NCBI GenBank assembly: GCA_024763075.1
Contig: JANTGF010000035.1
Span: forward strand, 1 to 41,130
From: Bacteroidales bacterium
Lineage (GTDB): Bacteria; Bacteroidota; Bacteroidia; Bacteroidales; VadinHA17
Direction: 5' to 3'
Length of the DNA stretch: 41,130 nucleotides
The position numbers and the translations under genes are program-made. How positions within the stretch are numbered: the first letter of the stretch is position 1; every line of letters starts with the position of its first letter. This document shows positions 77 to 23,800 of this stretch, in pieces. The notes beneath the pieces are model-generated. The model had not been told where the DNA came from. It worked only from the letters and a program-made list of their open reading frames with translations, and ran no database searches.

Positions 77-2155
77 TTATTCGACCATAATTTCATCCAC
101 AAACAACCATGCTTTTTTGCCTTCACCGGCATGACCGGGAGGACATAAGCCAATATTTTTGGCAAAAACATGCAGATACCTTGCTTTCTTACCCGGTAAT
201 TCAATCTCCAGTTTTTTAATATCTTTTCCATTGGTAAAACCTATATCAAAATCCTCCAATTCACCTGCTTTTTTATAGTTTTTACCATCCACCGAATATT
301 CAACTTTGTAATTTACAGGCCAGAATATCCAGGACCCTGTATTTTGAAGGGTATTGATGCTAACTTTATGAACAGGTTTCACCTCTCCCAGGTCAATGAC
401 CACATCCATGTCCGTTCCTTCCCAGCCCAACCACTCACCATCACGAATATTCTTCGAGCCTGTAACTCCGTTTCCCAGTGTTAAATCACCGTATGCTGCA
501 TATTTTGGGCTGTAAGGATTTTTTACCCGGATATTGCTGAATGAAGTGATTTTTTTCAGTTCTACATCCTCAACCTGACTGTCAGCCATCCCGTTTTTTA
601 TGGCCATACTTGTAATTACCATGGATTTGTCCACTAAAAGCGGGTCTTTATAAACAGCAGAAGACTGATCCGGAGTTTCTCCGTTCAAGGTATAAAGTAT
701 TTTTGCATCCTGTGTTTCAGAAGTTAATGTAACCCTGACCTGATTTGTAAATAAAACCTTATCCTTTGCCTCTTCCCCATCCACATGAATGAGCGGAGTA
801 TTTACTACTTCTGCCATTTCCCCCTTCACCTTAAAAACCCATGCATATTTACAAGGACGATTTACCGGATCCTGCAAAGAAACCGGAAGTTGAATACGAA
901 CACCTGTTCCCTCCATTTTTTCCCAGTTGAGAGGTTCGGAATATCCCAATAAAGTTACATCAGAATCTTTTTCCGGCATAATATATTTTGCAGATAGTGT
1001 TTCACCCGGCCAGGTAGTTGCAATCGCATAGACCCATTTTCCGTTTTTACTTTTAATATAATACAGATTCTCAGACTCCCTGTAATTTTTCACTCCCCTG
1101 GATTTATGAATGACCTCTCCGTTTACTTTCATCCATTCACCCATTTCTTCCAGTCTTTCAATGCTTTCATCCGGGAAAAGACCCTCGGATGTCGGGCCGA
1201 TATTTAGCAAATAATTTCCTCCTTTGGCAGCAATATCAATCAGATTGTGGATCAGCATTTTCGCTGATTTAAAGTTCTTATCATAGGAAGCATAGCCCCA
1301 ATGATTGTTCATGGTCATGCATGATTCCCAGTCCATATTCGATGTACCTTCAAGTATTTCCTGCTCCGGTGTACCGAAATCACCCACTGCATCCTCATAA
1401 GCATTCATGCCCTGCATTCCGGAGCGGCCTTTTCCAACCCGGTTATTAATGATCAGATCGGGCTTAATGTTCCGTAAATAATTATACAAGTCCCTACCCT
1501 GATCCTCAGTCCACTCTTCAATCCATTCACCATCAAACCAAAGAACTCCGATGTCCCCATAATTTGTCAGTAATTCTTTCAATTGGGGCTTAAGATATTC
1601 CTCCCGGTATTTTGGAAAATTCTCACCCTTCGCATCGGGATGGTGCCAATCCATGATGGAATGATAAAAACACAACCGGATCCCTGCCTTTTTACAGGCT
1701 TTTGATAATGCTTTCAGTACATCCTTTTTGTAGGGAGTTCTATCCATTATATCATAATCTGAAACTTTGGAATCCCACATGCAAAATCCATCATGATGCT
1801 TGGAAGTGATCACTATATATTCCATTCCGGCATCCTTCGCAAGGTTCACCCAATAATCTGCATTAAACTTAACCGGATTAAAAGAGGCTGCATATTTCTC
1901 ATATTCTTCAATTGGGATATGCGCCTGATTCATAATCCATTCCGCATAGGCAGCTTTCCCCTTGTAAATTCCTGCCGGAACTGAATAAATCCCCCAGTGG
2001 ATGAACATACCAAATCCGGCATCCCTCCACCACTCCATGCGTTTATCCTTATCTTTCTGTGATTCATGAAGATAATCTTTAGGTTCTTGATTACATCCGG
2101 GAATCAAAATCAACAATACAAAAACAAACAAAAGGTACTTTTTCAAATTTTTCAT
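77..2155 (-). CDS. GH29 alpha-L-fucosidase lipoprotein with CHB_HEX_C-like and F5/8C-like C-terminal domains
   Basis: Predicted to hydrolyse terminal alpha-L-fucose (or alpha-L-galactose) from a glycan at the cell surface or in the periplasm. The reading frame opens up to 2248, but I place the start at the ATG at 2155. From there the protein begins with a short basic stretch, a hydrophobic run and the lipobox LIPGC (Cys21), a lipoprotein signal; the longer start would also overlap the upstream gene. The product is 692 aa. GH29 hallmarks are GMFIHWGIYSVP (about 49-60), SKHHDGF (118-124) and WFDGEW, whose D208 is the expected nucleophile. Residues about 455-530 resemble a chitobiase/hexosaminidase C-terminal domain, and about 540-692 an F5/8-type (discoidin-like) domain. 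The tail is nearly the same as that of the GH116 protein two genes upstream. It is the last gene of the operon visible here. Confidence 0.9.
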   Translation of the reverse strand: MKNLKKYLLFVFVLLILIPGCNQEPKDYLHESQKDKDKRMEWWRDAGFGMFIHWGIYSVPAGIYKGKAAYAEWIMNQAHIPIEEYEKYAASFNPVKFNADYWVNLAKDAGMEYIVITSKHHDGFCMWDSKVSDYDIMDRTPYKKDVLKALSKACKKAGIRLCFYHSIMDWHHPDAKGENFPKYREEYLKPQLKELLTNYGDIGVLWFDGEWIEEWTEDQGRDLYNYLRNIKPDLIINNRVGKGRSGMQGMNAYEDAVGDFGTPEQEILEGTSNMDWESCMTMNNHWGYASYDKNFKSAKMLIHNLIDIAAKGGNYLLNIGPTSEGLFPDESIERLEEMGEWMKVNGEVIHKSRGVKNYRESENLYYIKSKNGKWVYAIATTWPGETLSAKYIMPEKDSDVTLLGYSEPLNWEKMEGTGVRIQLPVSLQDPVNRPCKYAWVFKVKGEMAEVVNTPLIHVDGEEAKDKVLFTNQVRVTLTSETQDAKILYTLNGETPDQSSAVYKDPLLVDKSMVITSMAIKNGMADSQVEDVELKKITSFSNIRVKNPYSPKYAAYGDLTLGNGVTGSKNIRDGEWLGWEGTDMDVVIDLGEVKPVHKVSINTLQNTGSWIFWPVNYKVEYSVDGKNYKKAGELEDFDIGFTNGKDIKKLEIELPGKKARYLHVFAKNIGLCPPGHAGEGKKAWLFVDEIMVE

Positions 2156-2228
2156 TTTACCAGGTTTTAAAAACTTATTAAATAATTTGTAAAACAGTTC
2201 CAAACTTCCATTATTCCATGTCCTTTTC

Positions 2229-3692
2229 TCACTCTGTGCCCCCTTCAATTCTCACCACATAAGCAGCACTTTCAACCGGTTTGGCTGCAGGCATATGAAT
2301 GACCAGGTCTTTCCCTGTATTTTTCCACTCAAGGGAACCTTCCCGGTCTAAAAGACTTACTTTAACACCCTTTTTAGCATGAAATTTCCTAATCACCAGT
2401 TTTTCACCCGGCCACTTCGGACTTATGGCATATAAGTTCCCATCCTTTTTTGTAAAAAACAATTCTTTTACTGCATAACCAGGCTCCGGATCAATCGTCT
2501 GTTTCAGGATGAAATCTCCTCCCAGATAATGTTGTTCAGGTTTATAGTTCCTGTCACCATCCGACCATTGAACGGCTCTTTTCCATTTCCTTGTACCATA
2601 AATGGCTTCTCCATTCACCTTCAGCCACTCACCCATCTGAAGCAGTCTCTCCTGCATAATCACAGGAATCTTTCCATGGGCGTCAGGGCCTATATCCAGT
2701 AATAAATTTCCTCCATGGCTGACAATGTCAACGAGCATGAGGATCAGGGTTTTCGGTGAATTGTAATCCTCAATATCTTCCGCTCTGTTATAACCAAAAG
2801 AGAAGCCCATTCCCCTGCATTCTTCCCAGGGTTTATTAAACTCAGCCGAAGCCTCATATTCGGTTGTAAAATAACCTCCATGCTTTTTCCGTAAACCTTT
2901 TCCCCAGCGGTCATTAATAACAATGGTATTCCCTACCGGAGATTCATTAAACAACCAGGCCAGTAATTCCGGTGTTTTCCAATCTTCAGCTGTCATCTCC
3001 CATTCTCCGTCCGGCCAGATTATATCCGGTTTATAACGTTCAATTAAATCTTTAAACTGAGGGTGAAAGTGCTCAGAAACAAATTTCTCCTTATCATAAA
3101 TCCACAGAGGATGAAACCACTCATATAATGAATAATATAAACCAAATTTCACATCGGTTTTGCGTATTGCCTGCTCCAGTTCACCCACCAGGTCACGATG
3201 TGGACCGATATCCATACTGTTCCAGGGGAAACCCCTGTCGTTTGCCTCTTTGCTGGGCCACATACAGTATCCATCATGATGTTTTGAAGTAGCTACGATA
3301 TATTTTGCACCCGATTTCACAAAAAGGTCAGCCCATGCATCCGGGTCATAAAGCTCTGCTTTAAACAGATCACCAAAACGGTAATATGTAAAATCTTTTC
3401 CATACTTATTTATATGGTAATCATAAACTTCCGTTCCTGTAAACTTCCCGTTTCCAAAAAGTGTTTTATTCTGTAGCCAGTATTGATACCACTCGGAGTA
3501 GGTCCCTTTCGGGCTCCAGGCAGGAACCGAATAGGGCCCCCAATGAATAAAAATTCCAAATTTTGCTTCGCCGAACCATGCCGGTACCGGTCGGGCATCT
3601 ATAGATTCCCATGTTGGTTCAATCTTCTTCTGGGAAAATGCCAACATTCCAAATGCAAGCATGATCATTGATAATAACAAGAACTTTCTCAT
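2229..3692 (-). CDS. Secreted GH29 alpha-L-fucosidase
   Basis: A second family 29 fucosidase (487 aa), expected to act outside the cytoplasm. The N-terminus has a Sec signal peptide ending near AFSQ (about residues 1-21). Family motifs are KFGIFIHWGPYSVPAW (44-59), ATSKHHDGYCMW (134-145) and IIWPDGEW, where D228 is the likely nucleophile. E290 in PWEECRGMGFSFGYN is a plausible acid/base, by position only. Unlike its downstream neighbour it has no accessory C-terminal domains and ends after a short beta domain. The two GH29 paralogues differ enough (insertion at about 65-100, WPDG against WFDG) that they probably cleave different fucosyl linkages. It follows the GH116 gene by about 34 bp and precedes the lipoprotein fucosidase by about 73 bp. 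The exact linkage cannot be read from sequence. Confidence 0.9.
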   Translation of the reverse strand: MRKFLLLSMIMLAFGMLAFSQKKIEPTWESIDARPVPAWFGEAKFGIFIHWGPYSVPAWSPKGTYSEWYQYWLQNKTLFGNGKFTGTEVYDYHINKYGKDFTYYRFGDLFKAELYDPDAWADLFVKSGAKYIVATSKHHDGYCMWPSKEANDRGFPWNSMDIGPHRDLVGELEQAIRKTDVKFGLYYSLYEWFHPLWIYDKEKFVSEHFHPQFKDLIERYKPDIIWPDGEWEMTAEDWKTPELLAWLFNESPVGNTIVINDRWGKGLRKKHGGYFTTEYEASAEFNKPWEECRGMGFSFGYNRAEDIEDYNSPKTLILMLVDIVSHGGNLLLDIGPDAHGKIPVIMQERLLQMGEWLKVNGEAIYGTRKWKRAVQWSDGDRNYKPEQHYLGGDFILKQTIDPEPGYAVKELFFTKKDGNLYAISPKWPGEKLVIRKFHAKKGVKVSLLDREGSLEWKNTGKDLVIHMPAAKPVESAAYVVRIEGGTE

Positions 3693-3726
3693 AATTTCAA
3701 ATTTTTTAAGGGTTTGCTAAAAAATC

Positions 3727-6700
3727 CTATTTAATTATTACTTCATCTGCAAATAACCAGGCTTTTTTGCCTGCTCCCGGATGGCCGGGCGGGCATACTC
3801 CCAAATTTTTTGCCTCAATTTTTACATACTGAAACAGCTCATTATCCAGATCTGAAACAGCAAAATAAACACTTCCTTTTTCGGCTTTTTTAATCTCAGT
3901 TATATGAATGTTCGCAATTTCCCTATAACTTTTTCCATCACCAGAGACCATTATTTTCACCTGCTCCGGAAGAAAGATCCACGATCCGGTATTTTTAAAA
4001 AAGCCAATTTTAATTTGCTTTACCTTCTGTTCTGATCCCAGATCAATCCGAAGCTTCATATCTTCACCCTCAAATCCAAGCCATTTTCCATCCGCAAAAT
4101 TACAACAACCCTGAATCCCGTCATTCAGAACATCTGCATTTCCTCCAGCGTATTTTGGAGAAGGTTTTGTTTCCAGCTTTAGTTCTTTGAACTTTTTGTA
4201 TTTAAAAAAATCCGCTTTCGTGATAACCATTCCCTGCCGGCCTTTCAAAAATGCCCGGGCTTTGATTTCACTGTTTTCTTTAATTACCAATGGTGTTTTA
4301 TATATTGAAGATCGCTTCGCCGGGTCAGATCCGTCAGTCGTGTATCTGATAACAACTCCCTTTGTCTCACAGGAAAGGGAGACTTTCAAAAAATCAGTAA
4401 AGGCAGCCGTTTTGATTTTTTTTTCGTTCTCATCCAGAAATACTACGGGTTTAATAACCGGAATCTTTTTGTTCACCATCAGATTTAAGGTTTCACCTGC
4501 CTTTGGAAAATTGTTCTTTACCCGCAGAGCCAGTTCATCCCCCTTTTTCAGCTTCCCTGTTTTTAATTTAATTTTTCCAAACCCCTTAAGTATCAGCGTT
4601 TCAATCTGCACATTTCCTTCCATTACCTTAATGACTACCTGTTTGTCAGTCGTTTCATCCTTAATGATAATGCTTCCATAGGCGTACCCGTTTGACCAGA
4701 AATAATTACCAGCCCTGGAGTTTATAGTCATTTCTCCTGTCACAGCGGAATACTGAAAACCCGTTAGAGCAGGTACTGCAGACCAGCTTGCCATAGCCCT
4801 TCCGTAATGATGGCCACATTCTGCCTCATCAAAGGGGCTTCGTTTATTCCCGTCATATCTGTTTCGTATGCTGCTTATACATTTCAGACCATTTTCCATT
4901 TGGTTTTCAAACAGCATACCTACTGCTGCTGTATATTCAAATCCGGTCATTACTTCTGTGAAATAGGGAAAAGGATCTTCCGGTCTTGAAAAAGGATAGC
5001 TTGCCATCAACAATGCGGCTTCATCTCCCAGAGCAAAAGTCCGGAAACAGTTAAAATGATCCCTTAGCTTTTCCTTATAATTGTATTTCATTATACTTTT
5101 CAGAGTTGTTTTCACATGAACAGGGTCTGTGAGATATCCCAGTCCGGTTACATGGGCCACATATTGCCCCACCAGCTGATCCACCAGACATCCTTCTCCC
5201 AGCTGATACTCCGGGTTGAAGCTATCCTTTGCTCCCATCCCCACTACCAGTCCCGGATTTATGTCATCCAGGCTTTTGGGAGGTTGAATTTTATGAATGT
5301 AAAATTCTCCGTTAAAAAGGTTTTCATCAATCCATTTCCTTCCGTTTCCGTACAGAGCCAGACAATTTTGGGCAAACTCTTTGTCTCCCATATATTTTGC
5401 CATTTCAGCCACGGAACGTAAAGCTCCCAGATACCAGATGCCCATTTGCGGATTCGGCCCGTAATACTCCACATCCATTGTGTTGTGCTGCACCCCTTCC
5501 ATCACTCCATCCATATCTGCATCCCATCCACCCGGCAGCCAGCAAAATTCCAGTGCCTTTTTCACCTGTGGATATAAGCGTTTCAGCATCTCATCATCTC
5601 CGGAAAGTTGCCAGTCACGGTACATTTTCATTATGGAACCCATCTGACCATCGGCAGCAGCTCTTCCAAAATTACGTATATTATCTTTAGGGAGGCTTAC
5701 TCTGAAACTCATTAATCCCTGATCATCCGTAGCCAGACCGAACTCAATTTCTCTTCTGCTTTTTGCAAGTTCACCAAATAAAAAGCCCGTCGCCTGTTCA
5801 TAATTCCATACATGCGTACAGGAGCCAAAGCAACACCCCGATTTATCATTACATCCTTCCCATGCATAAAAATTGCCATCATCCAGGCGAAAACAGGTTT
5901 GGGTACGCAGGGTACTCACATTAAAAAGTGCTGCTTCCTTCACAACTTCCGGTAAATCACTCCTGATAAAAGCATTCACAAAATCCTTTGTTTCCTTTTC
6001 CAAATCGGACAACCGGGGCTTCACCTTTGCAATTACATCCCAGGCATCCTCATATTGAGTGGTATAATAATTTTGTAACATTGAACTGGCCCAGGCTCTA
6101 CGATTCGGGAAATGCCAGGTAATGTAAAACTCTATTTTCCTGGTTTCTCCGGGTTTTAACAGGATTTCAGACGCAAGTGAGGACATAGGCTTATTCTCAC
6201 CCGTTTCTTTTCTCTCTGACAAAATACCATCTGCTGTAAAATCATCCCAGAAATCAAGTACTGAAGAACCCCAGCGCTGAGGTTTCCAATTTGTCCTATG
6301 GCTTATTGTCTGTCCTTCTGAAAGCGTGGTCAGAGCCATTGTTCCCCATTGCTCAAGACTTGAATCCACTCCTTCGGAGTACATATAAATCCCTTTCAGT
6401 CCATCTACATCCCTGAACTGATTTTTATTGGCAATGGATATTCCACCTGCCCCATCCTCCCCAATAAAATTCTGCATACTTCCGCAAACAGAAACCGGAA
6501 AACTTTCATTTGTAGTATTTTCGATTTCAAACTTCAAAATAGCCACCGGAATCCCGCTTTTATCGGCATCTCCAGGGATTAAGGGATTGTAGGCTTTGAT
6601 CCTGACTTTGACCGGCATTTCGGGATCACTCAATGAAACCATTCCAAACGGATAGGCTGCACTAAAAGATGCATCGGAAAAGCGCGGCAACCCATGATTG

Positions 6701-7047
6701 GTCACAACTGCTCCTGAACTTCCTTCATAATCATACAAAGGGGCCGGCCCTTCCAGTAATTTTGTCTTTTCTTTTCCCTTTTGACCGGTGAAAATAACAA
6801 AAAAGGGAGCCCGGTTATTTCCCGGACCAGGATTATAACCCTTAGCCGGCCGGTTCATGATTTCCCAGTCCTGTAAATTTCCTCTCCCTCCCAAAGAAAC
6901 AGTACCGGTTCCTATTCCCCCCAAGGGCAAAGCAATTTTATCAATATGAGTAGCATCATAATTTTTTAATACCGGCCATTCAGAATCCTGTCCGGTTGCC
7001 ATCGAAACAGCAAAAATAAACACTAAAAAAGTCAATATAGTTTTCAT
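3727..7047 (-). CDS. Secreted GH116 (GBA2_N/DUF608) glycosidase with CHB_HEX_C-like and F5/8C-like domains
   Basis: A large (1106 aa) exported glycoside hydrolase related to the non-lysosomal glucosylceramidase/beta-glucosidase family GH116. A signal peptide (about 1-20, ending MATGQ) precedes the N-terminal GBA2_N-type beta-sandwich, which opens with LPLGGIGTGTVSLGGRG. The (alpha/alpha)6 catalytic domain spans roughly 350-800. Its WEGC motif (E397) and NTMD motif (D525) occupy the places where I expect the nucleophile and acid/base of GH116; this assignment is from memory of the family. ECGHHYGRAMASW is also family-typical. After about residue 880 come a chitobiase-C-like domain and an F5/8-type domain. 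These end in CPPGHPGAGKKAWLFADE, almost matching the tail of the GH29 protein ending at 77. GH116 members act on beta-glucosides, beta-xylosides or N-acetylglucosaminides, so the substrate is open. Confidence 0.85.
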   Translation of the reverse strand: MKTILTFLVFIFAVSMATGQDSEWPVLKNYDATHIDKIALPLGGIGTGTVSLGGRGNLQDWEIMNRPAKGYNPGPGNNRAPFFVIFTGQKGKEKTKLLEGPAPLYDYEGSSGAVVTNHGLPRFSDASFSAAYPFGMVSLSDPEMPVKVRIKAYNPLIPGDADKSGIPVAILKFEIENTTNESFPVSVCGSMQNFIGEDGAGGISIANKNQFRDVDGLKGIYMYSEGVDSSLEQWGTMALTTLSEGQTISHRTNWKPQRWGSSVLDFWDDFTADGILSERKETGENKPMSSLASEILLKPGETRKIEFYITWHFPNRRAWASSMLQNYYTTQYEDAWDVIAKVKPRLSDLEKETKDFVNAFIRSDLPEVVKEAALFNVSTLRTQTCFRLDDGNFYAWEGCNDKSGCCFGSCTHVWNYEQATGFLFGELAKSRREIEFGLATDDQGLMSFRVSLPKDNIRNFGRAAADGQMGSIMKMYRDWQLSGDDEMLKRLYPQVKKALEFCWLPGGWDADMDGVMEGVQHNTMDVEYYGPNPQMGIWYLGALRSVAEMAKYMGDKEFAQNCLALYGNGRKWIDENLFNGEFYIHKIQPPKSLDDINPGLVVGMGAKDSFNPEYQLGEGCLVDQLVGQYVAHVTGLGYLTDPVHVKTTLKSIMKYNYKEKLRDHFNCFRTFALGDEAALLMASYPFSRPEDPFPYFTEVMTGFEYTAAVGMLFENQMENGLKCISSIRNRYDGNKRSPFDEAECGHHYGRAMASWSAVPALTGFQYSAVTGEMTINSRAGNYFWSNGYAYGSIIIKDETTDKQVVIKVMEGNVQIETLILKGFGKIKLKTGKLKKGDELALRVKNNFPKAGETLNLMVNKKIPVIKPVVFLDENEKKIKTAAFTDFLKVSLSCETKGVVIRYTTDGSDPAKRSSIYKTPLVIKENSEIKARAFLKGRQGMVITKADFFKYKKFKELKLETKPSPKYAGGNADVLNDGIQGCCNFADGKWLGFEGEDMKLRIDLGSEQKVKQIKIGFFKNTGSWIFLPEQVKIMVSGDGKSYREIANIHITEIKKAEKGSVYFAVSDLDNELFQYVKIEAKNLGVCPPGHPGAGKKAWLFADEVIIK

Positions 7048-7077
7048 AATTATTGTGTATTATTAATTTAGGCTTAA

Positions 7078-8112
7078 TTATTCTTTAATACATTCAAATC
7101 GAATCAGATATGGATCCTGGCCATGATGGATCATTGAAATTCCCCATTCAAACTGATGGCCGGAAATTTCCGGAAAGGACAAATCGGGCCTGAAGATACC
7201 AGGTGCATTTGGTCTGTTATGCACCTTTAAGTGAACGGGCTTACCCATGAAGTTAATTCCATCCGGTGCAAACTCAATGCTTGAACTTATGGATGCCAAA
7301 GCTCCTACGCCATTCCCTTCTTTCCATACCAGTACTTCATGACTGTGAGGGAGAATCGGAACTGCGTGTTTCTTAAACGGTCCTTCCGGTGAATACGAAA
7401 TGGCTACACCCATTTTTGTCTGTGCAGGGCCATGTTTCCCGTAGATTTTACTTCTTCCTTTGTAATACAACCATATCTTTCCGTTTCTTTCTATAATAGC
7501 TGCATCATCTATCCGGTACGAGTCGAATTTCAGGGAGTCATCACTAATCTCCAGGACAGGAGAAGAGGATACGCGTTTAAACGGACCATTCGGAGAAACA
7601 GAAACAGCCAATCCGATTGCAGTAATATCACTGACAGAATTATTTTCAAAAACACTATCCTCTTTTCCCGGGGTATGTTTTACTCCGGTATAATATAAAT
7701 AATACTGTTTAGCTTTTCTGAAAATGTTTGGGGTAAAAACTGCAAATGAATCAAAGCTGCCAGGTGCTCCTTTTCCAAGGGCTTCACCCTTTTCCTTCCA
7801 GGTTCTTCCTTCATCCTCTGAAACAGCATACCAGATGGTTCCCCAATACCCGGCCGCTCTTCCTTTTACTTTTGTGTACCAGACAAACCATTTATTTCCC
7901 ACCTTTATTATATCACTGGGATCTCTCCTTGCAAAACCTTTTTCATAACCAATTCCAGAAATTTCATCGTAATTGAATTCTACACTATGATATTTCAATC
8001 CTTTCTCTCCTTCTAAGATAGATCTTCTTCCACCTATGGTCACCAGAATTAAAACAAGGAGAAAGCTATATACTCCAATCCATTTTAAAAATATCTGACC
8101 TCTGCTCTTCAT
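7078..8112 (-). CDS. GH117/GH43-like five-bladed beta-propeller glycosidase, membrane-anchored or secreted
   Basis: A 344-aa protein with one N-terminal hydrophobic segment (about 11-27; uncleaved anchor or signal peptide) and a repetitive propeller sequence. The repeats include NKWFVWYTK, KQYYLYYTG and GKIWLYYKGR. Acidic residues sit at blade starts: RRDPSD (D64), GSFDSF (D121) and YRIDDA (D202). A HSHEVLVWKEGNGVGAL segment (about 256-271) is reminiscent of GH117, the exo-alpha-1,3-L-(3,6-anhydro)galactosidases. GH43 or a related unclassified propeller family is the alternative. If it is GH117, alpha-L-galactosyl-type linkages would fit with the two GH29 enzymes, because L-fucose is 6-deoxy-L-galactose. 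It starts 3 bp after the stop of the GH172 gene, indicating tight co-transcription. Confidence 0.6.
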   Translation of the reverse strand: MKSRGQIFLKWIGVYSFLLVLILVTIGGRRSILEGEKGLKYHSVEFNYDEISGIGYEKGFARRDPSDIIKVGNKWFVWYTKVKGRAAGYWGTIWYAVSEDEGRTWKEKGEALGKGAPGSFDSFAVFTPNIFRKAKQYYLYYTGVKHTPGKEDSVFENNSVSDITAIGLAVSVSPNGPFKRVSSSPVLEISDDSLKFDSYRIDDAAIIERNGKIWLYYKGRSKIYGKHGPAQTKMGVAISYSPEGPFKKHAVPILPHSHEVLVWKEGNGVGALASISSSIEFAPDGINFMGKPVHLKVHNRPNAPGIFRPDLSFPEISGHQFEWGISMIHHGQDPYLIRFECIKE

Positions 8113-8115
8113 TAT

Positions 8116-9291
8116 TTATTCATCCTTAATTCTGAGTTTCTCTGCATTTGGAAGGTCAGAAAATTTATTATGTGGTTCTGTCTGATACCAATAGGCAACA
8201 GCCGACAAGTCATCTTCCAGAGGCAGGTAACGTCCTTCACTTTGCCAACCAAGACTCTGGATGGTAACCTTAAGATCATTTTCAAACCGAACAGGATCAG
8301 TAATATGCCAGCGATATTCCCCAACCTTACTCAGATACTTTCCTTTCCCAGGGTCTTTAACAAAATAAAATCCTGAATAAGGTGAACTAAAAGATGTATA
8401 AATATCTTTGTCACCTTCTCCCTTTCTCATTTCAAAGCCATAAGAACCATTAAAATAATCTTCTTCTCCGGTTCCACAAATAGTTGGAAACTGGGTATCT
8501 CCATCTATAAAAAATTTAATTTCTCCTTCGCCCCACCAACCTTTACTGAATGCACCGTGTGAAAGGTAAGTTCCAACGTACTGCCCTTTTCCTTTAATGT
8601 TATCAACGATTGTAAAATCAGTTTTATATGGCAAAGGATTTATTCGTCTGAACTGAGCATGAAAATAGGCCGCATCTTCATCTGTTTCAGTCAAAACATA
8701 GTCCACCTGGTAATAGAGAGTCATCCTTTTTTCATCCAGGTTTTCCATGGTGATTTTACATTTTTTTCTGAACGGCATCTGCCAGTATGAATTAAAACCG
8801 CTTCCGGGGTTCACACAAACAGCCAGGGATCGGATTTCGGGTTCATTTCCTCTTCCCCATCCCGTAGCAAAAAAATCACCTACCGGAACTTCCACTGATG
8901 GCTCCTCTTCATCATCCCAGTAAATCCGCAAAATGCTTAAGCGATAATTACCACTGGGTGTCATCCAGATGTGATTTATGGCCCCCGGGCCTTCCATTTC
9001 AGCTAAAGTAAAAGTCTTCCCGGGTTCAATGTGAATGTAAGGATTCACTTTCCATCCCTGACCCAACTCCCGTGCCGCTTTTGCTGCAGAGCCCTCTTTC
9101 AGGGTAGCCATTCCCCCTTTTCCTTTCTCTCCGCTAAAATTCTCCGGACTTATGGACCTTGATTTTGCTCCGGATAAACGGTAAAGATTACCCATATGGG
9201 TATTGATTCCGTTAAACCCGGTATCTTTCTGACCAGCTACAGAGAAGGTCAAAAACACCAGAATTAAAAAAACAATTGAATTTTTCATCAT
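8116..9291 (-). CDS. Secreted GH172 (DUF2961) glycosidase
   Basis: A 391-aa exported protein with a signal peptide (about 1-21, ending SVAGQ) and a DUF2961 fold. Characterised members of GH172 act on alpha-D-fructofuranosides, difructose dianhydride and alpha-D-arabinofuranosides, usually as oligomers. The motifs GEGEIKFFIDGD (E255) and CGTGEEDYFNGSYG (E276) put two glutamates 21 residues apart. That matches the spacing I recall for the catalytic pair of the difructose-anhydride enzyme. The ATG at 9291 is followed by a second Met, so the start could be three bases later. It is the first enzyme gene after the LacI regulator. The real substrate is unknown; a furanoside side chain on a fucosylated glycan is one possibility. 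Confidence 0.82.
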   Translation of the reverse strand: MMKNSIVFLILVFLTFSVAGQKDTGFNGINTHMGNLYRLSGAKSRSISPENFSGEKGKGGMATLKEGSAAKAARELGQGWKVNPYIHIEPGKTFTLAEMEGPGAINHIWMTPSGNYRLSILRIYWDDEEEPSVEVPVGDFFATGWGRGNEPEIRSLAVCVNPGSGFNSYWQMPFRKKCKITMENLDEKRMTLYYQVDYVLTETDEDAAYFHAQFRRINPLPYKTDFTIVDNIKGKGQYVGTYLSHGAFSKGWWGEGEIKFFIDGDTQFPTICGTGEEDYFNGSYGFEMRKGEGDKDIYTSFSSPYSGFYFVKDPGKGKYLSKVGEYRWHITDPVRFENDLKVTIQSLGWQSEGRYLPLEDDLSAVAYWYQTEPHNKFSDLPNAEKLRIKDE

Positions 9292-9340
9292 AATCTATTT
9301 TTTTGATTAAAAAACATTCATTCCTGTTTACCGTTCCTGC

Positions 9341-10390
9341 TTATCCATACCTCAGATTCCCACAAGATCTTCGTACCATAAACCGGGTGGGAAGGACTAC
9401 CTTTTGGAGTCCGGATGATTTACTCTTCAATTCATCAACCAGGATGTTCACAGCTTTTAGTCCAATTTCATCAATGGGTTGTTTTATTGCAGTTACAGGT
9501 GTTTCAAATAACTTATACTCTGCCGGATCGTCAAAGCTTACCACGGCAACATCTAGGGGAACCCTGAATTTCATTTCCCGGATACACTCGAGTCCGACTA
9601 TCCCCATAATGCAGGTCTGAAAATAGAGTGCCCGGATATTATAAGGAGGCATCAGAAGCTTCCGTACATTTTCATATACACTTTCCCTGAAATTTTCAAA
9701 ATCAACCTTTCCTACATATTTGTTCTCAAAACGAATGCCTGCATCACTCAAAGCGTCTTTATATCCATTCAACCGATCGTTCATTTGAGTTAACTCAGGA
9801 AATATGCTAAGTGTTCCGATTTTTTTATATCCGAATTTTGTCAAATGGCTGACTGCTTTATACGAAGCGTCAAAATTATCCACCACTACGTAATTGGTAT
9901 CCAGATTCCTGAAAAATCTGTCAATCAAAACAAACGGAATATTTTTTTCTTTAAGTTGCCTGATCAGCTTCAGACTACCAAGTGTAGGAGAAATAATAAA
10001 CCCTTCTACCTTTCGCTCCAGGAACATATTCAGCATTCGTTCCAGCTTAACAGGGTTTTCATCCGAACTCCCAAACATTACCTTATAACCGTATTTCTCA
10101 GCCTCATCTTCAACCACCCTTGCCATTCTGGCAAAAAAGATATTCGATATATCGGCCATTATGAATGCAATGGTGTTGGTTTTACCGGTTCTTAATCCAC
10201 GGGCAAGTTGATTCGGCCGGTAATTTAATTCTTTGGCCATCAATAATACCTTCTCTGCGATCTTATCACTGATCCGGCTTTGCTTTGCCTTTCCATTTAA
10301 TACCAGAGAAACCAGGGTGACCGAAACTCCCAGTTTTTTTGCAATATCCTGTAATGAGGTAACCTTATGATTATTATCCTGGCTTTTCAA
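9341..10390 (-). CDS. LacI-family transcriptional regulator (TTG start)
   Basis: A 349-aa LacI/GalR regulator. The helix-turn-helix (about 12-35, SLQDIAKKLGVSVTLVSLVLNG) and hinge (NYRPNQLARGLRTGKTNTIAF, about 56-76) are intact. A type-1 periplasmic-binding-protein-like sensor domain runs from about 72 to 340. The only start that keeps the full helix-turn-helix is TTG at 10390: an in-frame stop lies three codons upstream, and the nearby ATG at 10397 is out of frame and terminates after seven codons. Its position at the head of the glycoside-hydrolase series, 49 bp before the GH172 gene, suggests that it controls that operon and perhaps itself. The inducer is not evident. Confidence 0.92.
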   Translation of the reverse strand: MKSQDNNHKVTSLQDIAKKLGVSVTLVSLVLNGKAKQSRISDKIAEKVLLMAKELNYRPNQLARGLRTGKTNTIAFIMADISNIFFARMARVVEDEAEKYGYKVMFGSSDENPVKLERMLNMFLERKVEGFIISPTLGSLKLIRQLKEKNIPFVLIDRFFRNLDTNYVVVDNFDASYKAVSHLTKFGYKKIGTLSIFPELTQMNDRLNGYKDALSDAGIRFENKYVGKVDFENFRESVYENVRKLLMPPYNIRALYFQTCIMGIVGLECIREMKFRVPLDVAVVSFDDPAEYKLFETPVTAIKQPIDEIGLKAVNILVDELKSKSSGLQKVVLPTRFMVRRSCGNLRYG

Positions 10391-10718
10391 ATTGCATTAT
10401 TATAAGTTGCTAAAACGAATATATTTTCAGATCATGCTGTATAGTACTAATAATCAATATTATATAAAATACAACGAGACTTCTTTCCTCTTTTTAAAAT
10501 TAGTTCAAAACTATGTATTATCCAACAAAACAAATTATTTTTTTTAATTCCCCCCAAAACTCACTAAATATAGGATAATTTTAAACTAAATCGATTAAAT
10601 TACTCTGTTAAGTAATTACAATCAAAATGTTTCATAGCAAAAATAAGCTGTAAAAATGGTCAATTTATATAAATTGATATTATTTTTGGGGCCCGTAAAC
10701 ATTCAAATTGTTTTTATT
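10391..10718. promoter_or_regulatory. Divergent intergenic region between LacI regulator and membrane-protein gene
   Basis: About 330 AT-rich bases that must serve both directions. For the minus strand, TAGTTTTG (10513-10506) fits the Bacteroidota -7 element TAnnTTTG, with TTTG about 17 bp upstream (10534-10531). For the plus strand, TATTTTTG at 10681-10688 fits the same element and would place transcription start just before the ATG at 10719. A small palindrome AATCGATT with a central CG (10589-10596) might be a LacI-type operator, but it is short and weak in so AT-rich a background. Confidence 0.45.
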
Positions 10719-11603
10719 ATGGAAGATTATCGCAAGAATCCTTATTTCCGGAAAATGGATATCGACATATTATTTCAAAGCACCTGGGAATTGTATAAAA
10801 AACATTTCGGATGGTTCTTTTTCTATTCTTTTATAGTTGTTGTACTGATGCAATACGCCAGCTCTTCTTTGCTTGAACCTTATTTTGAGAATATTCAAAA
10901 ACTAAACACTGACCCGGGACTGGCAACAGAAATCATTAAACAGGCCATGTGGCTTTTACTGATCACTATTACAGCTTATACCTTTTTGTACATGTTCTTC
11001 ACATATATATTACTTCATCCTGATGCTGAAACACCCTCCCGGCAAATGTCTTTACTTGGAGAAGCCATTAAAAAGCATTATCTGCCATTGCTGGGAGCGA
11101 CTCTTCTTGCTGCTGCTCTGGCATTACTGGGGACTATGCTGGGTGTATTTGTCCTAATAATCGGATCATTTTTAGCTGCAATTTACCTTGGTTCTGTTCT
11201 TTTTATTATTATCCCGCTAACCATTGTCGAAAACACCAGACCAACTGAGTCTGTTTCCCGTTGTTTTAAGCTTGTACACACCGATCTCTGGAAAACAATT
11301 GGCTGGGTATTAATCTTTTTTGTATTGTTTTTTGTAGTCTCTATGGTTATCTCCATCCTTACTATGATCCCCTTTGCAGGAAACTTTTTAGAAATGATAA
11401 AAGATCCGGTAACTTCATTGGAAGCCGGAGGAGGGAACATCCTCAATAACCCGCTTCAGTTTTTACTGACAAGTGCCGGCAATGCCTTACTTATGCCTTT
11501 TATGCCCATCTTTTCGACCCTAATTTATTTAAATCTTAAATACGGTGAAAGTCCGGGAACAGAAAAAAAGGATGAGTTTAACATTCTGGAACATTTCAGG
11601 TAG
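10719..11603 (+). CDS. Polytopic inner-membrane protein of unknown function
   Basis: The reading frame opens from 10656, but I choose the ATG at 10719 (MEDYRKNPYFRKMD), giving 294 aa. The -7-like element at 10681-10688 lies inside the longer version, and the residues before 10719 do not look like a native soluble start. The protein has a short cytosolic N-terminus and five or six strongly hydrophobic segments. These lie in the stretches starting FGWFFFYSFIVVVL, MWLLLITITAYTFLY, LLGATLLAAALALLG, FVLIIGSFLAAIYLG, WVLIFFVLFFVVSMV and LLTSAGNALLMPF. The style is like uncharacterised YciC/GPDPase_memb-type bacterial membrane proteins, but I cannot assign a family. It is probably monocistronic, lying between the two LacI-controlled units. 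Confidence 0.75.
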   Translation: MEDYRKNPYFRKMDIDILFQSTWELYKKHFGWFFFYSFIVVVLMQYASSSLLEPYFENIQKLNTDPGLATEIIKQAMWLLLITITAYTFLYMFFTYILLHPDAETPSRQMSLLGEAIKKHYLPLLGATLLAAALALLGTMLGVFVLIIGSFLAAIYLGSVLFIIIPLTIVENTRPTESVSRCFKLVHTDLWKTIGWVLIFFVLFFVVSMVISILTMIPFAGNFLEMIKDPVTSLEAGGGNILNNPLQFLLTSAGNALLMPFMPIFSTLIYLNLKYGESPGTEKKDEFNILEHFR

Positions 11604-11752: not shown

Positions 11753-12814
11753 ATGATTGAAGATAATGAAAAAACAGGGATCAATGATATTGCCAGGTTA
11801 GCCAATGTTTCTAAAGCAACCGTTGACCGGGTACTTTACAACCGTGGAAGAGTTTCAGACGAGACCCGCGAAAAAGTACTGAATATCTGTAAAGAACTTA
11901 ACTACCAACCAAACATACTCGCTCAAAGGCTTGCTTCTGACAAAGTTTACCGGTTAGCTGTATTGATCCCTAAATCAACACCGGACAATCCATACTGGGA
12001 ATATCCCTTAAAAGGAATAGAAAATGCAGAAAAAGAAGTGGAAAATTATGGAATTAAAATTAAAAAATACTTCTATGACCTGAAAGACATCCGCTCCTTT
12101 CGAAAAGAATCACTCCAGGTTCTGACGTCTGATCCGGATGGTATTGTATTCGCACCCGAATTCAATCGTGAATCGATTGAGTTTTCTCAAAAATGTTCTC
12201 ACAAGAAAATCCCATACATCTTCATCGATTCAAACCTTCCAAAACAAAACCATCTGAGTTATTTTGGACAGGACACCTATCAGGGTGGCTATCTTGCAGG
12301 TAAATTACTGAGCCTTCATTTAAAAAAACACTCTGAAGTTCTGATATTGAATTTTGCAAATGAACTGGCAAATTACCCTCATTTTATGGATCGCGAAAAA
12401 GGAATGAGAGATTATTTTACAGAACATAATTACCACGGAAAAATTACTTCTTTAAATATATCCCCAGACCAGGAAACAGAATTAAAAGAAATTGTAAAAG
12501 GGAAATTACACCGCAGGACACGGGGCTTGTTTATTACCTCCTCCGCTCACAAAGTAGCCCGGCAAATACAAAAAACCGGAAAAGGGAACCTAATGATCCT
12601 GGGATATGACCTTACTACTCCCAATTTAAAGTACCTGAAAAATGGAATCATTGACTTCCTGATATGTCAAAAACCCGTAACACAGGGCTATCTGTCAATA
12701 ATGGCCCTTTTTGATCATCTGGTACAAAAGAAGGATATTCAAAAAAGTAATTTCATGCCCATTGAAATCATTGCGAAAGAAAATTATCAATATTATTTAG
12801 ATTCTAATATTTAA
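11753..12814 (+). CDS. LacI-family transcriptional regulator of the uronate/LarA operon
   Basis: A 353-aa regulator with an N-terminal LacI helix-turn-helix (about 8-30, GINDIARLANVSKATVDRVL) and hinge helix (NYQPNILAQRLAS, about 50-62). The C-terminal half is a periplasmic-binding-protein-like sensor (about 67-350) of the kind that binds sugars or sugar acids. It is distinct from the LacI protein ending at 9341; the recognition helices differ, so different operators are expected. The stop is 5 bp before the SDR gene, so it is the first cistron of that operon. The perfect palindrome at 11671-11688 is its probable target. Its ligand may be a uronate or aldonate intermediate, by inference from the neighbours. 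Confidence 0.92.
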   Translation: MIEDNEKTGINDIARLANVSKATVDRVLYNRGRVSDETREKVLNICKELNYQPNILAQRLASDKVYRLAVLIPKSTPDNPYWEYPLKGIENAEKEVENYGIKIKKYFYDLKDIRSFRKESLQVLTSDPDGIVFAPEFNRESIEFSQKCSHKKIPYIFIDSNLPKQNHLSYFGQDTYQGGYLAGKLLSLHLKKHSEVLILNFANELANYPHFMDREKGMRDYFTEHNYHGKITSLNISPDQETELKEIVKGKLHRRTRGLFITSSAHKVARQIQKTGKGNLMILGYDLTTPNLKYLKNGIIDFLICQKPVTQGYLSIMALFDHLVQKKDIQKSNFMPIEIIAKENYQYYLDSNI

Positions 12815-12819
12815 AAAGA

Positions 12820-13671
12820 ATGAAAAACTTACATTTTGAAGATCTTGAAGATAAAGTTTGCGTGTTAACCGGAGGCGGCGGGGCCATTGGTTCTTCTCTT
12901 GGTATTTACCTGTCTGAGATGGGCCTAAAACTTGCTATCCTTGATCTGAATGGACCCCGTGCTATTGAAGTCGCAGAAGAAATAACAGCTAAAACCGGCA
13001 ATCAGGCCATCGGACTGGCAACTAATGTTCTGGATAAGGAGTCCCTGATTTCCGCAAAAGCAACCATCAATACAGAACTCGGAAAAGTAAACTTTTTGAT
13101 CAATGCAGCGGGAGGAAATTCTCCAAAAGGAACTACCGATCTGGAAACACTTGATACGGTTTCAGAAGAGAATCTTGAAAAATCTTTCTACGGCATGGAT
13201 GTGGACGGATTCAGAAAAGTTTTTGACCTTAATTTTAACGGCACACTGCTACCTACCATGGTATTTAGCACAGATATGCTTGACCTGGGAAAAGGTTCTG
13301 TTATAAACTTTTCTTCTATGAGTGCTTACCATCCTTTAACAAGGGTGGGTGCTTATTCGGCTGCCAAAGCAGCCATCAGTAATTTTACAGAATGGCTGGC
13401 CGTACATCTGGCTAAACAAAATATCAGGGTAAACGCTGTTGCTCCCGGTTTCTTTGTAGGCGAACAAAACCGGTTCCTGCTTTATGATGAGAAAACCGGT
13501 GAACTTTCGGCACGAGGTAAAAAGATCATTCAAAACACCCCGATGGGCAGGTTCGGTGAATATGAAGAAATTCACGGAACGGTTACATATTTGCTTTCCG
13601 ATCTGGCAAATTTTGTTACCGGAATTGTTATTCCGATTGATGGAGGATTTAATGCATTTAGCGGAGTATAG
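12820..13671 (+). CDS. SDR-family oxidoreductase, probable D-fructuronate reductase (D-mannonate oxidoreductase)
   Basis: A classical short-chain dehydrogenase/reductase of 283 aa. The nucleotide-binding glycine motif TGGGGAIGSSLG is at about 17-28. The catalytic set is a serine in NFSSMSAY (about 165) with Y179 and K183 in YSAAK. The C-terminus ends with the IPIDGGFNAFSGV pattern that I associate with the Bacteroidota SDRs annotated as D-mannonate oxidoreductase. The proposed reaction is reduction of D-fructuronate to D-mannonate with NAD(P)H, the step after uronate isomerase, which is encoded nine kilobases downstream in the same operon. The family call is secure. The substrate is inferred from context and end sequence; another sugar-acid ketone such as tagaturonate is possible. 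Confidence 0.8.
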   Translation: MKNLHFEDLEDKVCVLTGGGGAIGSSLGIYLSEMGLKLAILDLNGPRAIEVAEEITAKTGNQAIGLATNVLDKESLISAKATINTELGKVNFLINAAGGNSPKGTTDLETLDTVSEENLEKSFYGMDVDGFRKVFDLNFNGTLLPTMVFSTDMLDLGKGSVINFSSMSAYHPLTRVGAYSAAKAAISNFTEWLAVHLAKQNIRVNAVAPGFFVGEQNRFLLYDEKTGELSARGKKIIQNTPMGRFGEYEEIHGTVTYLLSDLANFVTGIVIPIDGGFNAFSGV

Positions 13672-13712
13672 AAATATCAGAGAAATAATTAAGTATCAAT
13701 AAAAGTAGAAAA

Positions 13713-14993
13713 ATGAGAAAGAATGTAATCGTTGCACAATCGGGCGGGCCTTCCCCGGTAATAAATAATTCTCTGAGAGGGATCATCGATACCTGTAAGA
13801 TGTATCCGGAAACGTTTGGAACAATTTATGGCGGATGGCATGGCATTGAAGGCGTATTGAAAGAAGAACTGCTGAATCTATCAGACCAGGATACTGATGA
13901 AATAGCCCTTCTCAGGAATACACCTGCTGCAGGGAGTATCGGAACCTGCCGTTATAAGCTAAAAGAGCATCAAAAAATGGACTTTGAACGGATCATTGAA
14001 GTCTTTAGGGCACAAAATATTGGCTATTTCTTTTATATCGGCGGAAATGATTCTCAGCATACGGCATTTAAAGTGAGTGAGATTTGCAGGGAAAAAGGAC
14101 TGGATGTTATTGCCGTAGGTGTTCCGAAAACTATTGATAATGATGTTGGGGATAACGAATTCAAGCTGATAGATCACACTCCTGGATATGGTAGTGTGGC
14201 CCGCTACTGGTCTCATATTGTGCAAACTGCAAATGAAGAAAACATGGGTTCGTCACCAGCTGATCCGGTACTTGTACTTCAGGCCATGGGAAGAAAAATC
14301 GGTTATATACCGGCAGCTGCCCGGCTGGCCGACCCAAACCGTGAAATGCCCTTGCAAATTTATCTGGCGGAATCAGGTGTTTCCCTTCCTGAACTTGCCG
14401 ACAAGGTAAACGATCAGATCAAAAAAGACGGAAGATGCCTGATCGTTGTCAGCGAAGGATTCGATGTTGGGGATCTGGGAGATGTAAAAGACTCGTTTGG
14501 CCATACCAGTTTTGGTTCTACAAAAAATTCTGTCTCCCAGACGATCGTAAATTATCTGAATGATAAAGGCCTGAAAGCAAGAGGATCTGCCCGAGGACAG
14601 GTTATGGGAACCGATCAGCGCGATACAGCTATTTACGCTTCGGTTCCTGACCTTGAAGAAGCATATTTTGTAGGCCAGAAAGCCGTGGATATTGCAATAC
14701 ATGAAGGAAATGGATGGATGGCAACAATTCTCAGGAAACCCGGATCAATATATCATGTTTATTATGATAAAGTACCACTTGAGAAGGTTGCACTCTCAGA
14801 AAGAACTTTTCCTGAAAAATGGATCACAGAATCCGGTACCGATGTAAGCGATGAATTTCTGGATTATGTCCGGCCGCTAATTGGAAATGACTGGCCTTCC
14901 GTTCCACTTATAAACGGAATTCAACGATTTACAAAATTCAAGCAGATTTTTGCAGAGAAAAAACTAAAAGCTTACTTACCCGAAGCCTATTAA
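13713..14993 (+). CDS. Phosphofructokinase-family enzyme, pyrophosphate-type
   Basis: A 426-aa PFK-fold kinase beginning VAQSGGPSPVINNSLRG. Two diagnostic sites point to pyrophosphate rather than ATP as phosphoryl donor. GGND (110-113) has Asp at the position that is Gly in ATP enzymes, and PKTIDND has Lys139 where ATP enzymes have Gly. D142 is the expected catalytic base. The first Asp of the usual GGDD is Asn112, a variant I recall in some PPi-type clades. The standard role is reversible fructose-6-phosphate phosphorylation. PPi-PFKs also phosphorylate sedoheptulose-7-phosphate, which would suit an operon feeding the pentose-phosphate pathway. A gluconate or other sugar-acid kinase activity would be new but would fill a gap here. 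Confidence 0.85.
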   Translation: MRKNVIVAQSGGPSPVINNSLRGIIDTCKMYPETFGTIYGGWHGIEGVLKEELLNLSDQDTDEIALLRNTPAAGSIGTCRYKLKEHQKMDFERIIEVFRAQNIGYFFYIGGNDSQHTAFKVSEICREKGLDVIAVGVPKTIDNDVGDNEFKLIDHTPGYGSVARYWSHIVQTANEENMGSSPADPVLVLQAMGRKIGYIPAAARLADPNREMPLQIYLAESGVSLPELADKVNDQIKKDGRCLIVVSEGFDVGDLGDVKDSFGHTSFGSTKNSVSQTIVNYLNDKGLKARGSARGQVMGTDQRDTAIYASVPDLEEAYFVGQKAVDIAIHEGNGWMATILRKPGSIYHVYYDKVPLEKVALSERTFPEKWITESGTDVSDEFLDYVRPLIGNDWPSVPLINGIQRFTKFKQIFAEKKLKAYLPEAY

Positions 14994-15025
14994 TGTAAAA
15001 AGAGAAGTTTAAAAAACAATTATTT

Positions 15026-15916
15026 ATGGACCCGCAACAAATATTAAAAGATCTGAAACCAAAAAAAGAATTTTTTATAGGAATTGATTCTGATGGTTGT
15101 GTTTTTGATTCCATGGAGCCAAAACAAAAAGAATTCTTTTGCCCTAATGTAATCAGGTATTATGGCTTATTGCCTATTTCAAAAATAGCCCGTGAAACCT
15201 GGGAATTTGTTAATTTATATTCCCGCACCAGAGGAGTAAATCGTTTTCTGGCTTTGCTGAAATGTTTTGAATTACTGAGAGAACGCCAGGATGTAAAATC
15301 AAGAAACTTTGAGGTACCCGACATGAGCGCTCTGGAAAAATGGACGAAAATTGAGACAAAACTTGGCAATCCGGGACTGGAAAAATATGCCAGTGAAGTA
15401 AATGAGCCGGATATTGACCTGGCCCTTAAATGGTCAAAGAAGGTAAATGAAGAAATCGGTTACTGGGTAAAAGGTCTCAAACCTTTTCCATTTATAAACG
15501 AATCACTTGAAAAGATGCAAAAAAATGCAGATGCTATTGTGGTTTCTCAAACTCCGGTGGAGGCACTTGAAAGAGAATGGGAAGAAAATAATATTGATCA
15601 TTTTGTCAGAGTAATTGCAGGACAGGAATTTGGCACAAAAACCGAACACCTCGCATTCGCTGCCAAAGGTAAATATCCGGATGATAAAATCCTGATGATC
15701 GGGGATGCTCCCGGGGATTATAATGCTGCTTCGAAAAATAATGTTCTTTTTTATCCGATCATCCCGGGGAAAGAAGATGAATCATGGAAACACTTTCATG
15801 AAGAAGCGCTGGACAGATTTCTTTCGGGAACTTATGCCGGAGAGTATGAGAAATCACTGATCAGAGAATTTGACAAATATCTGCCATCCACTCCTCCATG
15901 GCAACAAAACAGGTAA
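15026..15916 (+). CDS. HAD-superfamily hydrolase with large cap domain, substrate unknown
   Basis: A 296-aa haloacid-dehalogenase-fold protein. Motif I is FIGIDSDGCVFD with D21 and D23, motif II is IVVSQTP, motif III is the lysine of GTKTEHL, and motif IV is MIGDAPGDY. The region between motifs I and II (about 30-165) is a long, mostly helical cap, larger than in phosphoglycolate-phosphatase-type members and rich in aromatic residues. Such enzymes are mostly phosphatases. It is packed between the PFK-like gene (32 bp upstream) and the LarA-like gene (3 bp downstream), suggesting a linked metabolic step or removal of a side-product phosphate. I do not recognise an experimentally characterised close relative. 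Confidence 0.8.
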   Translation: MDPQQILKDLKPKKEFFIGIDSDGCVFDSMEPKQKEFFCPNVIRYYGLLPISKIARETWEFVNLYSRTRGVNRFLALLKCFELLRERQDVKSRNFEVPDMSALEKWTKIETKLGNPGLEKYASEVNEPDIDLALKWSKKVNEEIGYWVKGLKPFPFINESLEKMQKNADAIVVSQTPVEALEREWEENNIDHFVRVIAGQEFGTKTEHLAFAAKGKYPDDKILMIGDAPGDYNAASKNNVLFYPIIPGKEDESWKHFHEEALDRFLSGTYAGEYEKSLIREFDKYLPSTPPWQQNR

Positions 15917-15919
15917 AAA

Positions 15920-17194: not shown

Positions 17195-17209
17195 CCTAAA
17201 TCAAATACT

Positions 17210-18640: not shown

Positions 18641-18650
18641 AATTCTGGCA

Positions 18651-19646: not shown

Positions 19647-19677
19647 GGTTGAATTATCCTTTGAATTGAAAAAATAA

Positions 19678-20817: not shown

Positions 20818-20823
20818 AAGAAA

Positions 20824-22278: not shown

Positions 22279-22294
22279 GTAAACTCTAATTATT

Positions 22295-23698: not shown

Positions 23699-23746
23699 AT
23701 TGTTAATAAAAAAATTTAACAGACTTTATGCAGGACTAGAAATTTG

Positions 23747-23754
23747 TATTTTTG
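23747..23754 (+). promoter_or_regulatory. Candidate -7 promoter element for transketolase
   Basis: TATTTTTG fits the Bacteroidota TAnnTTTG element and lies 47 bp before the transketolase ATG, within the only gap of about 100 bp in this gene series. No clean -33 TTTG is seen, so the call is tentative. An AT-only inverted repeat precedes it at 23701-23721. Confidence 0.45.
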
Positions 23755-23800
23755 CATCTTATTTGAATTTGAATCAATAAACATAAATTAAATTTTAATT

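Follow-up and report, generated by a model that had tools for sequence, protein, structure and literature searches.

A 41,130-nucleotide contig of a Bacteroidales bacterium (family VadinHA17; GenBank JANTGF010000035.1, positions 1 to 41,130; hereafter the window) carries, at 77-10390 on the minus strand, five glycoside hydrolase (GH) genes headed by the gene for a LacI-family regulator. Our best explanation, which we hold tentatively and at slightly less than an even chance, is that this is an exo-glycosidase operon with no SusC/D in view whose enzymes would strip L-fuco- and D-arabino-type sugars off a probably sulfated glycan, feeding FucP, FucI, and FucK encoded elsewhere in the genome. The enzyme families, the gene order, the retention of catalytic residues where these were checked, and the repeated co-occurrence of GH29, GH116, and GH172 in the family are established. 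A sequence-only reading of this DNA had described a LacI gene and five glycosidase genes of families GH172, GH117-like, GH116, and GH29 (two) here; the six genes lie where it placed them, and Pfam, PDB sequence, and fold comparisons bear out the family assignments. In order of transcription (LacI, GH172, GH117, GH116, GH29b, GH29a), the genes are as follows.

9341..10390, minus strand: LacI-family regulator (Pfam LacI and Peripla_BP_3), first gene of the operon
8116..9291, minus strand: GH172 (DUF2961, 294 bits), ExoMA1 clade, with Gly at the position of ExoMA1 Asn253
7078..8112, minus strand: GH117 of a separate clade (PDB sequence matches and fold; Pfam gives a weak GH43 match, 41 bits)
3727..7047, minus strand: GH116, ExoMA2 type (Glyco_hydr_116N, 217 bits; DUF608, 120 bits), with a tail of Fn3_assoc and F5/8 type C
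2229..3692, minus strand: GH29b, alpha-L-fucosidase family (Alpha_L_fucos, 410 bits)
77..2248, minus strand: GH29a, lipoprotein-like, alpha-L-fucosidase family (Alpha_L_fucos, 332 bits), with Fn3_assoc/CHB_HEX_C and F5_F8_type_C

From LacI down to GH29b, the intergenic distances are 49, 3, 30, and 34 bases. GH29a as listed starts at a TTG and overlaps GH29b by 20 bases; judging from a lipoprotein-like N-terminus, its true start is likely an ATG at about position 2155, 31 codons inward. All five enzymes have signal-peptide-like N-termini (judged by eye) and are apparently exported, and the N-terminus of GH117, where the model has a helix at residues 6 to 38, could be a membrane anchor. The position of the LacI gene supports the earlier suggestion that its product is the regulator, and it likely controls the operon; compared with NCBIfam models, its every match was under the respective cut-off. 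Inverted repeats occur on both sides of the LacI gene, in its upstream region and in the gap before GH172; one of them, at 10584-10601, has a central CG, but it carries little weight in AT-rich DNA.

Contig C35, which the window covers in full, belongs to a 4.59-Mb genome (197 contigs, 96% complete) and ends 76 bases past the operon; the stretch left of base 77 is therefore unreadable. We scanned 29 of the 48 listed open reading frames (ORFs) of the window with Pfam, and among these there was no match to sulfatase or SusC/D models and thus no SusC/SusD pair; the ORFs at 30438-31772 and 31800-33065 had no Pfam match at 1e-6. SusCD-type polysaccharide utilization loci (PULs) of Bacteroidota likewise combine exported-looking glycosidases with a regulator, but the window has a LacI rather than hybrid two-component or anti-sigma control, and no SusC/D was seen in its scanned ORFs.

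To place GH116 and GH172, we compared them with solved structures. The nearest relative of GH116 was ExoMA2 (PDB code 8ic6; E = 6.6e-133; 37% identity), an exo-beta-D-arabinofuranosidase of GH116 subfamily 4 (PMC10509167). A beta-glucosidase is unlikely, as the best match of that kind reached only E = 5.8e-21. The nucleophile, the acid/base, and two sugar-recognition residues of ExoMA2 (E431, D557, H446, and R483, respectively; PMC10509167) are all kept in the window protein, and also in all 21 aligned GH116 relatives, one partial row ending before the last residue (the alignment omitted the split second GH116 of locus L064 and matches with fewer than 400 aligned residues). Since these relatives come from unlike loci, such as the pectinesterase-bearing L070, the four residues mark the group and not the substrate. 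In the GH116 tree, ExoMA2 grouped on the side of the window protein and not with the GH116 of locus L081 (support 94/92; the branch is long and its place unsure). This placement speaks for arabinofuranosidase activity, and by sequence comparison, the window GH116 may well act on D-arabinofuranose.

The nearest solved relative of the window GH172 (DUF2961 is GH172; PMC10115798) was ExoMA1 (8ic8; E = 3.8e-106; 49.6% identity over 343 positions), an exo-alpha-D-arabinofuranosidase (PMC10509167). The GH172 tree was built by a quick method without bootstrap. Two glutamates, which we take to be catalytic, are kept in the window protein. Asn253 of ExoMA1 excludes fructose (PMC10509167), and the Gly found at this position in the window is also present in the GH172 proteins of L063 and L026 and in both of L064. 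In our alignment, DgGH172c has Cys there and still cleaves alpha-D-arabinofuranosides (PMC10115798); the position is therefore not decisive either way.

GH172 and GH116 enzymes are partners of GH183 in D-arabinan breakdown, and similar clusters occur elsewhere, with a GH116 gene in that of Dysgonomonas gadei (PMC10509167). That half of what the sequence-only reading had called an unusual combination was thus already known, whereas the full five-enzyme set was not encountered in the literature searched, nor did a literature search return a paper with GH172 together with GH29. Neighborhood comparison of the GH172-GH116 pair, which had also been proposed, finds it with GH183 in D-arabinan degradation and with GH29 in this family. 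The D-arabinan clusters of Microbacterium arabinogalactanolyticum and D. gadei (PUL42) likewise hold ExoMA1/ExoMA2-type GH172 and GH116 genes in one cluster (PMC10509167, PMC10115798), but the window adds two GH29 genes and GH117, and no GH183, SusC/D, or ABC importer was seen among its scanned ORFs. Its GH172 has Gly for Asn253, and its enzymes look exported, whereas the Microbacterium exo-enzymes are without signal sequences.

These parallels raise the alternative of a D-arabinan utilization locus in which the breakdown of mycobacterial-type or pilin D-arabinan would be completed by GH172 and GH116, with the GH29 and GH117 enzymes in accessory roles. ExoMA1 and ExoMA2 being the closest solved relatives, the published GH172-GH116 clusters, and the position of ExoMA2 in the tree all fit this alternative, but the expected endo-acting partner family does not appear: GH183 (DUF4185) gave four matches in the genome, all under the cut-off (best, 27.8 versus 39.5 bits), and none among the scanned window ORFs. 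By comparison, L081, a locus from the same order, encodes a GH183 at 320 bits, a GH116, an ExoMA1-like GH172 that has Asn as in ExoMA1, a second GH172 with Tyr at that position, and SusC/D-like genes (by eye), and it is likely a D-arabinan locus; its GH116 falls on a different branch from that of the window. Furthermore, the alternative leaves two fucosidases unexplained. On the GH183 contrast we rejected a plain D-arabinan PUL; a D-arabinan locus is an unlikely reading of the window, and with accessory enzymes allowed for, we still regard the idea as quite improbable. As a separate observation, proteins of ~410 to 430 amino acids with weak, sub-cut-off similarity to DUF4185 are encoded in L024 (1870-3108 and 7634-10162) and L025 (6977-8206), possibly a GH183-related family.

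The propeller protein encoded at 7078..8112 is a GH117 and not a GH43 enzyme. All eight PDB sequence matches were GH117 or neoagarobiose-hydrolase entries by title, and none was GH43. A fold search with the AlphaFold model (mean pLDDT, 84) returned GH117 for the first 18 of the 50 chains listed (E = 4.8e-26 to 1.1e-19; next, 5.2e-11), and the first arabinanase ranked 21st (E = 1.8e-9). The protein does reach 41 bits with the Pfam GH43 model, but a common GH43 arabinanase or xylosidase, which the sequence-only reading had named as the result that would overturn it, is rejected by these comparisons. In a tree of 44 rows, the window protein belongs to a seven-member clade (support 100/100), with the bootstrap unsettled and the long branch to the clade flagged as a possible false joining; rows under 230 residues, among them fragments from L096 and L102, were left out.

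We then examined the active site, anchoring BpGH117 numbering on the H302E and E303Q mutant chains. In BpGH117, Asp90 is the base, His302 and Asp320 form a dyad in which Asp320 shares a proton with the catalytic His, and Glu303 also belongs to the site; mutation of Glu167 inactivates the agar enzyme (PMC11574756). The window protein shares the fold and the Asp90, Asp245, Lys260, His302, and Glu303 positions with the 3,6-anhydro-alpha-L-galactosidases BpGH117, ZgAhgA, and SdNABH, but it has Asn for Glu167, Asp for the His preceding Asp245, and no Asp320. The five complete close members of the clade show this same set of retained and altered positions, and the two distant members have Thr at Asp320, one of them also Ala for Glu303. 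With Asp320 missing and Glu167 replaced, an agar-type 3,6-anhydro-L-galactosidase was rejected, and the clade is probably of another specificity. Of the earlier description as an "alpha-L-galactosidase-like" propeller, the family thus stands, whereas the activity is uncertain in a clade without two residues of the known active site.

GH117 genes matched at 1e-20 or better in 6 of 393 genomes of the order and 11 of 395 genomes of a phylum sample; a scan of named genomes yielded two loci, a close one in Dyadobacter jejuensis (55%) and a second with a weak match. Sulfatases lie near five of the seven clade members (by Pfam in L118, L119, L066, and L009 and by motif in L120), the one in L066 at ~12.6 kb from the GH117 gene. 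Fucosidase families are near three of the seven, namely, the window, L118, and L119 (GH29 in both of the latter; GH95 in L118), and DUF6786 is near two by Pfam (L118 and L066). No sulfatase adjoins the window GH117, and the member from the same genus (L029) sits on a 4.5-kb contig with nothing telling. The only neighborhood compared from outside the clade, L123, also has a sulfatase motif, so the sulfatase link has no proper control.

These neighborhoods bear on a second alternative, proposed in the sequence-only reading: an algal locus for sulfated fucan or L-galactose-containing galactan. The substrates of GH172 and GH116 would then be furanoses or other sugars that have yet to be described in such glycans. 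The sulfatases beside close GH117 relatives, the GH29 genes in two of those loci and GH95 in one, and 36 sulfatase matches in the genome are in its favor. However, no endo-acting algal enzyme was present among the scanned window ORFs, and the GH117 active site is unlike that of the agar-type enzymes; we consider this alternative possible but unlikely. The earlier remark that there is no sulfatase holds for the scanned window ORFs but not beyond them, as related loci carry sulfatases and three of the genomic matches lie at a fucosidase/FucP locus on contig C29.

Several observations on these loci are set apart here. In L066, a GH117-clade domain follows a GDSL-type esterase domain in one protein (14179-15738), and the stretch has two GH116 genes, a sulfatase, and DUF6786. 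In L121 (G605:C6), the GH117-clade gene is broken by a stop, with a short sulfatase-like fragment nearby (by eye), and is apparently decaying. DUF6786, a family without known function, recurs across GH117-clade, GH116/GH172, and fucosidase/sulfatase loci (L118, 8283-9557; L066, 15837-17066; L064, 3559-4827; and L134, 12644-13966).

The two GH29 proteins supply the fucosidase side of the operon. By PDB comparison, the nearest chains to GH29b are human tissue and Thermotoga-type fucosidases, and the residues that we presume to be its nucleophile and acid/base both align with those of the 1hl8 chain in the printed alignment. GH29a was assigned by its catalytic domain alone. Its C-terminal tail recurs on the window GH116 (36% over 224 amino acids) and, among the ORFs of the loci examined, on the GH116 of genome G001, the GH172 of G003, the GH20 of G013, and one C29 sulfatase. 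A common tail hints at a single glycan on which all of these enzymes come together.

To assess conservation, we compared 36 genomes of the family, our own included, reading loci to the contig ends or to the limits of the stretches taken. A window-type GH116 (at least 59% identity) was present in seven of them, again counting our own; across the order, GH116 occurred at E = 1e-60 or better in 28 of 393 genomes. GH29 adjoins GH116 in five of the seven family loci, and GH172 lies within ~5 kb in four. The six loci other than the window are as follows.

G001 (same genus): GH116 (87% over the aligned part) and GH29b (85%), ordered as in the window, on a contig of 3.2 kb; GH117 on a different contig
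G003: Gfo/Idh, membrane protein, GH172, GH116, GH29a
G013: sulfatase, GH20, GH29b, GH116, membrane protein, GH172, sulfatase, second LacI, SDR, phosphofructokinase
G022: GH116 truncated where the contig ends, membrane protein, GH172, sulfatase motif, second LacI, SDR, phosphofructokinase
G004: GH29a, GH116, L-fucose isomerase
G014: GntR, FGGY kinase (L-fuculokinase over cut-off), L-fucose isomerase, GH116

Collectively, the seven loci identify GH29, GH116, and GH172 as a recurring core. Neither GH117 nor the first LacI appeared in the stretches compared from the six relatives, and both look like additions in the lineage of the window.

The rest of the genome offers a route for the released sugars. 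Contig C36 encodes FucI, the single fucose isomerase match in the genome, and L-fuculokinase, both above NCBIfam cut-offs, with a GntR nearby; contig C29 encodes FucP, above the TIGR00885 cut-off, together with two GH29 enzymes, three sulfatases, and DUF6786. This C29 locus (L134, 2938-17005), which also has a sugar transporter and in which one sulfatase carries the GH29a-like tail, is likely a sulfated-fucose locus. The L-fucose isomerase type of enzyme also isomerizes D-arabinose (PMC6894278), and fucose isomerase is abundant in D. gadei on D-arabinan (PMC10115798). Since one isomerase type serves both sugars, an enzyme set that frees both feeds one pathway.

The mechanism that we favor, stripping of L-fuco- and D-arabino-type ends, would run as follows. 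Outside the cytoplasm, the five enzymes would remove end sugars from one complex, probably sulfated glycan, and related C-terminal modules would keep two of them there. Sulfatases encoded elsewhere, for example on C29, would clear sulfate. GH29a and GH29b would release alpha-L-fucose. GH116 would free a beta-linked and GH172 an alpha-linked furanose of D-arabino configuration, although the sugar released by GH172 may be a ketofuranose instead, for example alpha-D-fructofuranose. GH117 would remove a terminal L-galacto-type sugar, probably not 3,6-anhydro-L-galactose. L-Fucose would enter by FucP, free L-fucose and D-arabinose would meet at FucI and FucK, and the LacI would release the operon once a product sugar accumulates. 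The earlier ideas of fucose or L-galactose and furanoside substrates are in line with these assignments.

Several points weigh against this mechanism. A literature search, judged from its listing, showed no published glycan with both L-fucose and D-arabinofuranose. The four ExoMA2 residues are no proof of D-arabinofuranosidase activity in a protein 37% identical to ExoMA2, and the Gly of GH172 at the Asn253 position is shared with alphaFFase1. In the genome, no GH183 match reached the cut-off, which makes a D-arabinose polymer unlikely as the target. L-Fucose isomerase lies beside GH116 in just two of the seven family loci (G004 and G014), the window not being one of them, and among these loci, GH117 lies beside GH116 in the window only. 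Finally, FucP falls under one of two fucose-permease cut-offs (272 versus 427 bits).

What sets this operon apart is that enzymes of the D-arabinofuranosidase type occur in it alongside fucosidases and a GH117 with a changed active site; the enzyme types themselves are known. A literature search for D-arabinose, L-fucose isomerase, and D-arabinan together found nothing. A bolder version, to which we give modest weight and which is itself rather unlikely, is that the target is an undescribed glycan class with L-fucose (or L-galactose) and D-arabinofuranose-type ends, that the GH117 clade has a new specificity, without the Asp partner of the catalytic His, for a non-anhydro L-galacto sugar, and that the GH172 pocket is opened for a ketofuranose or another C1-substituted furanose. 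If the proposal is true, GH172/GH116 D-arabinofuranosidase-type enzymes would extend beyond mycobacterial arabinan, the GH117 clade would have a different mechanism that can be tested, and the existence of a natural glycan in which fucose occurs with D-arabinose-like furanoses would be indicated.

Next to the operon, the plus strand of the window carries the following gene.

10656..11603, plus strand: membrane protein, GPDPase_memb-like (Pfam), with homologues beside GH172/GH116 in three relatives (L130, L063, and L133)

Beyond it lies a plus-strand metabolic operon (11753-25843) encoding the second LacI, an SDR, a PPi-type phosphofructokinase, a HAD protein, a nickel-dependent putative hexonate epimerase (NF052594), two Gfo/Idh proteins, a PdxB-like dehydrogenase, 6-phosphogluconate dehydrogenase, glucuronate isomerase, and transketolase. 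The gene set resembles an oxidative route from uronates to pentose phosphates. We do not favor this operon as the consumer of the released sugars, because its hexonate-epimerase gene occurs in 29 of the 36 family genomes and window-type GH116 in 7. That same count, far above the one for GH116, is consistent with a third alternative, that the GH genes share no substrate and form a loose collection beside a conserved metabolic operon, as is the failure to see GH117 and the first LacI in the stretches compared from the six relatives. Yet the genes are tightly spaced on a single strand, GH29, GH116, and GH172 occur together in other genera of the family, and the C-terminal tails are related; we consider a loose collection very unlikely. 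Farther along the window, a secretion-system sorting domain, which points to Bacteroidota, is encoded in the gene at 33892-36633.

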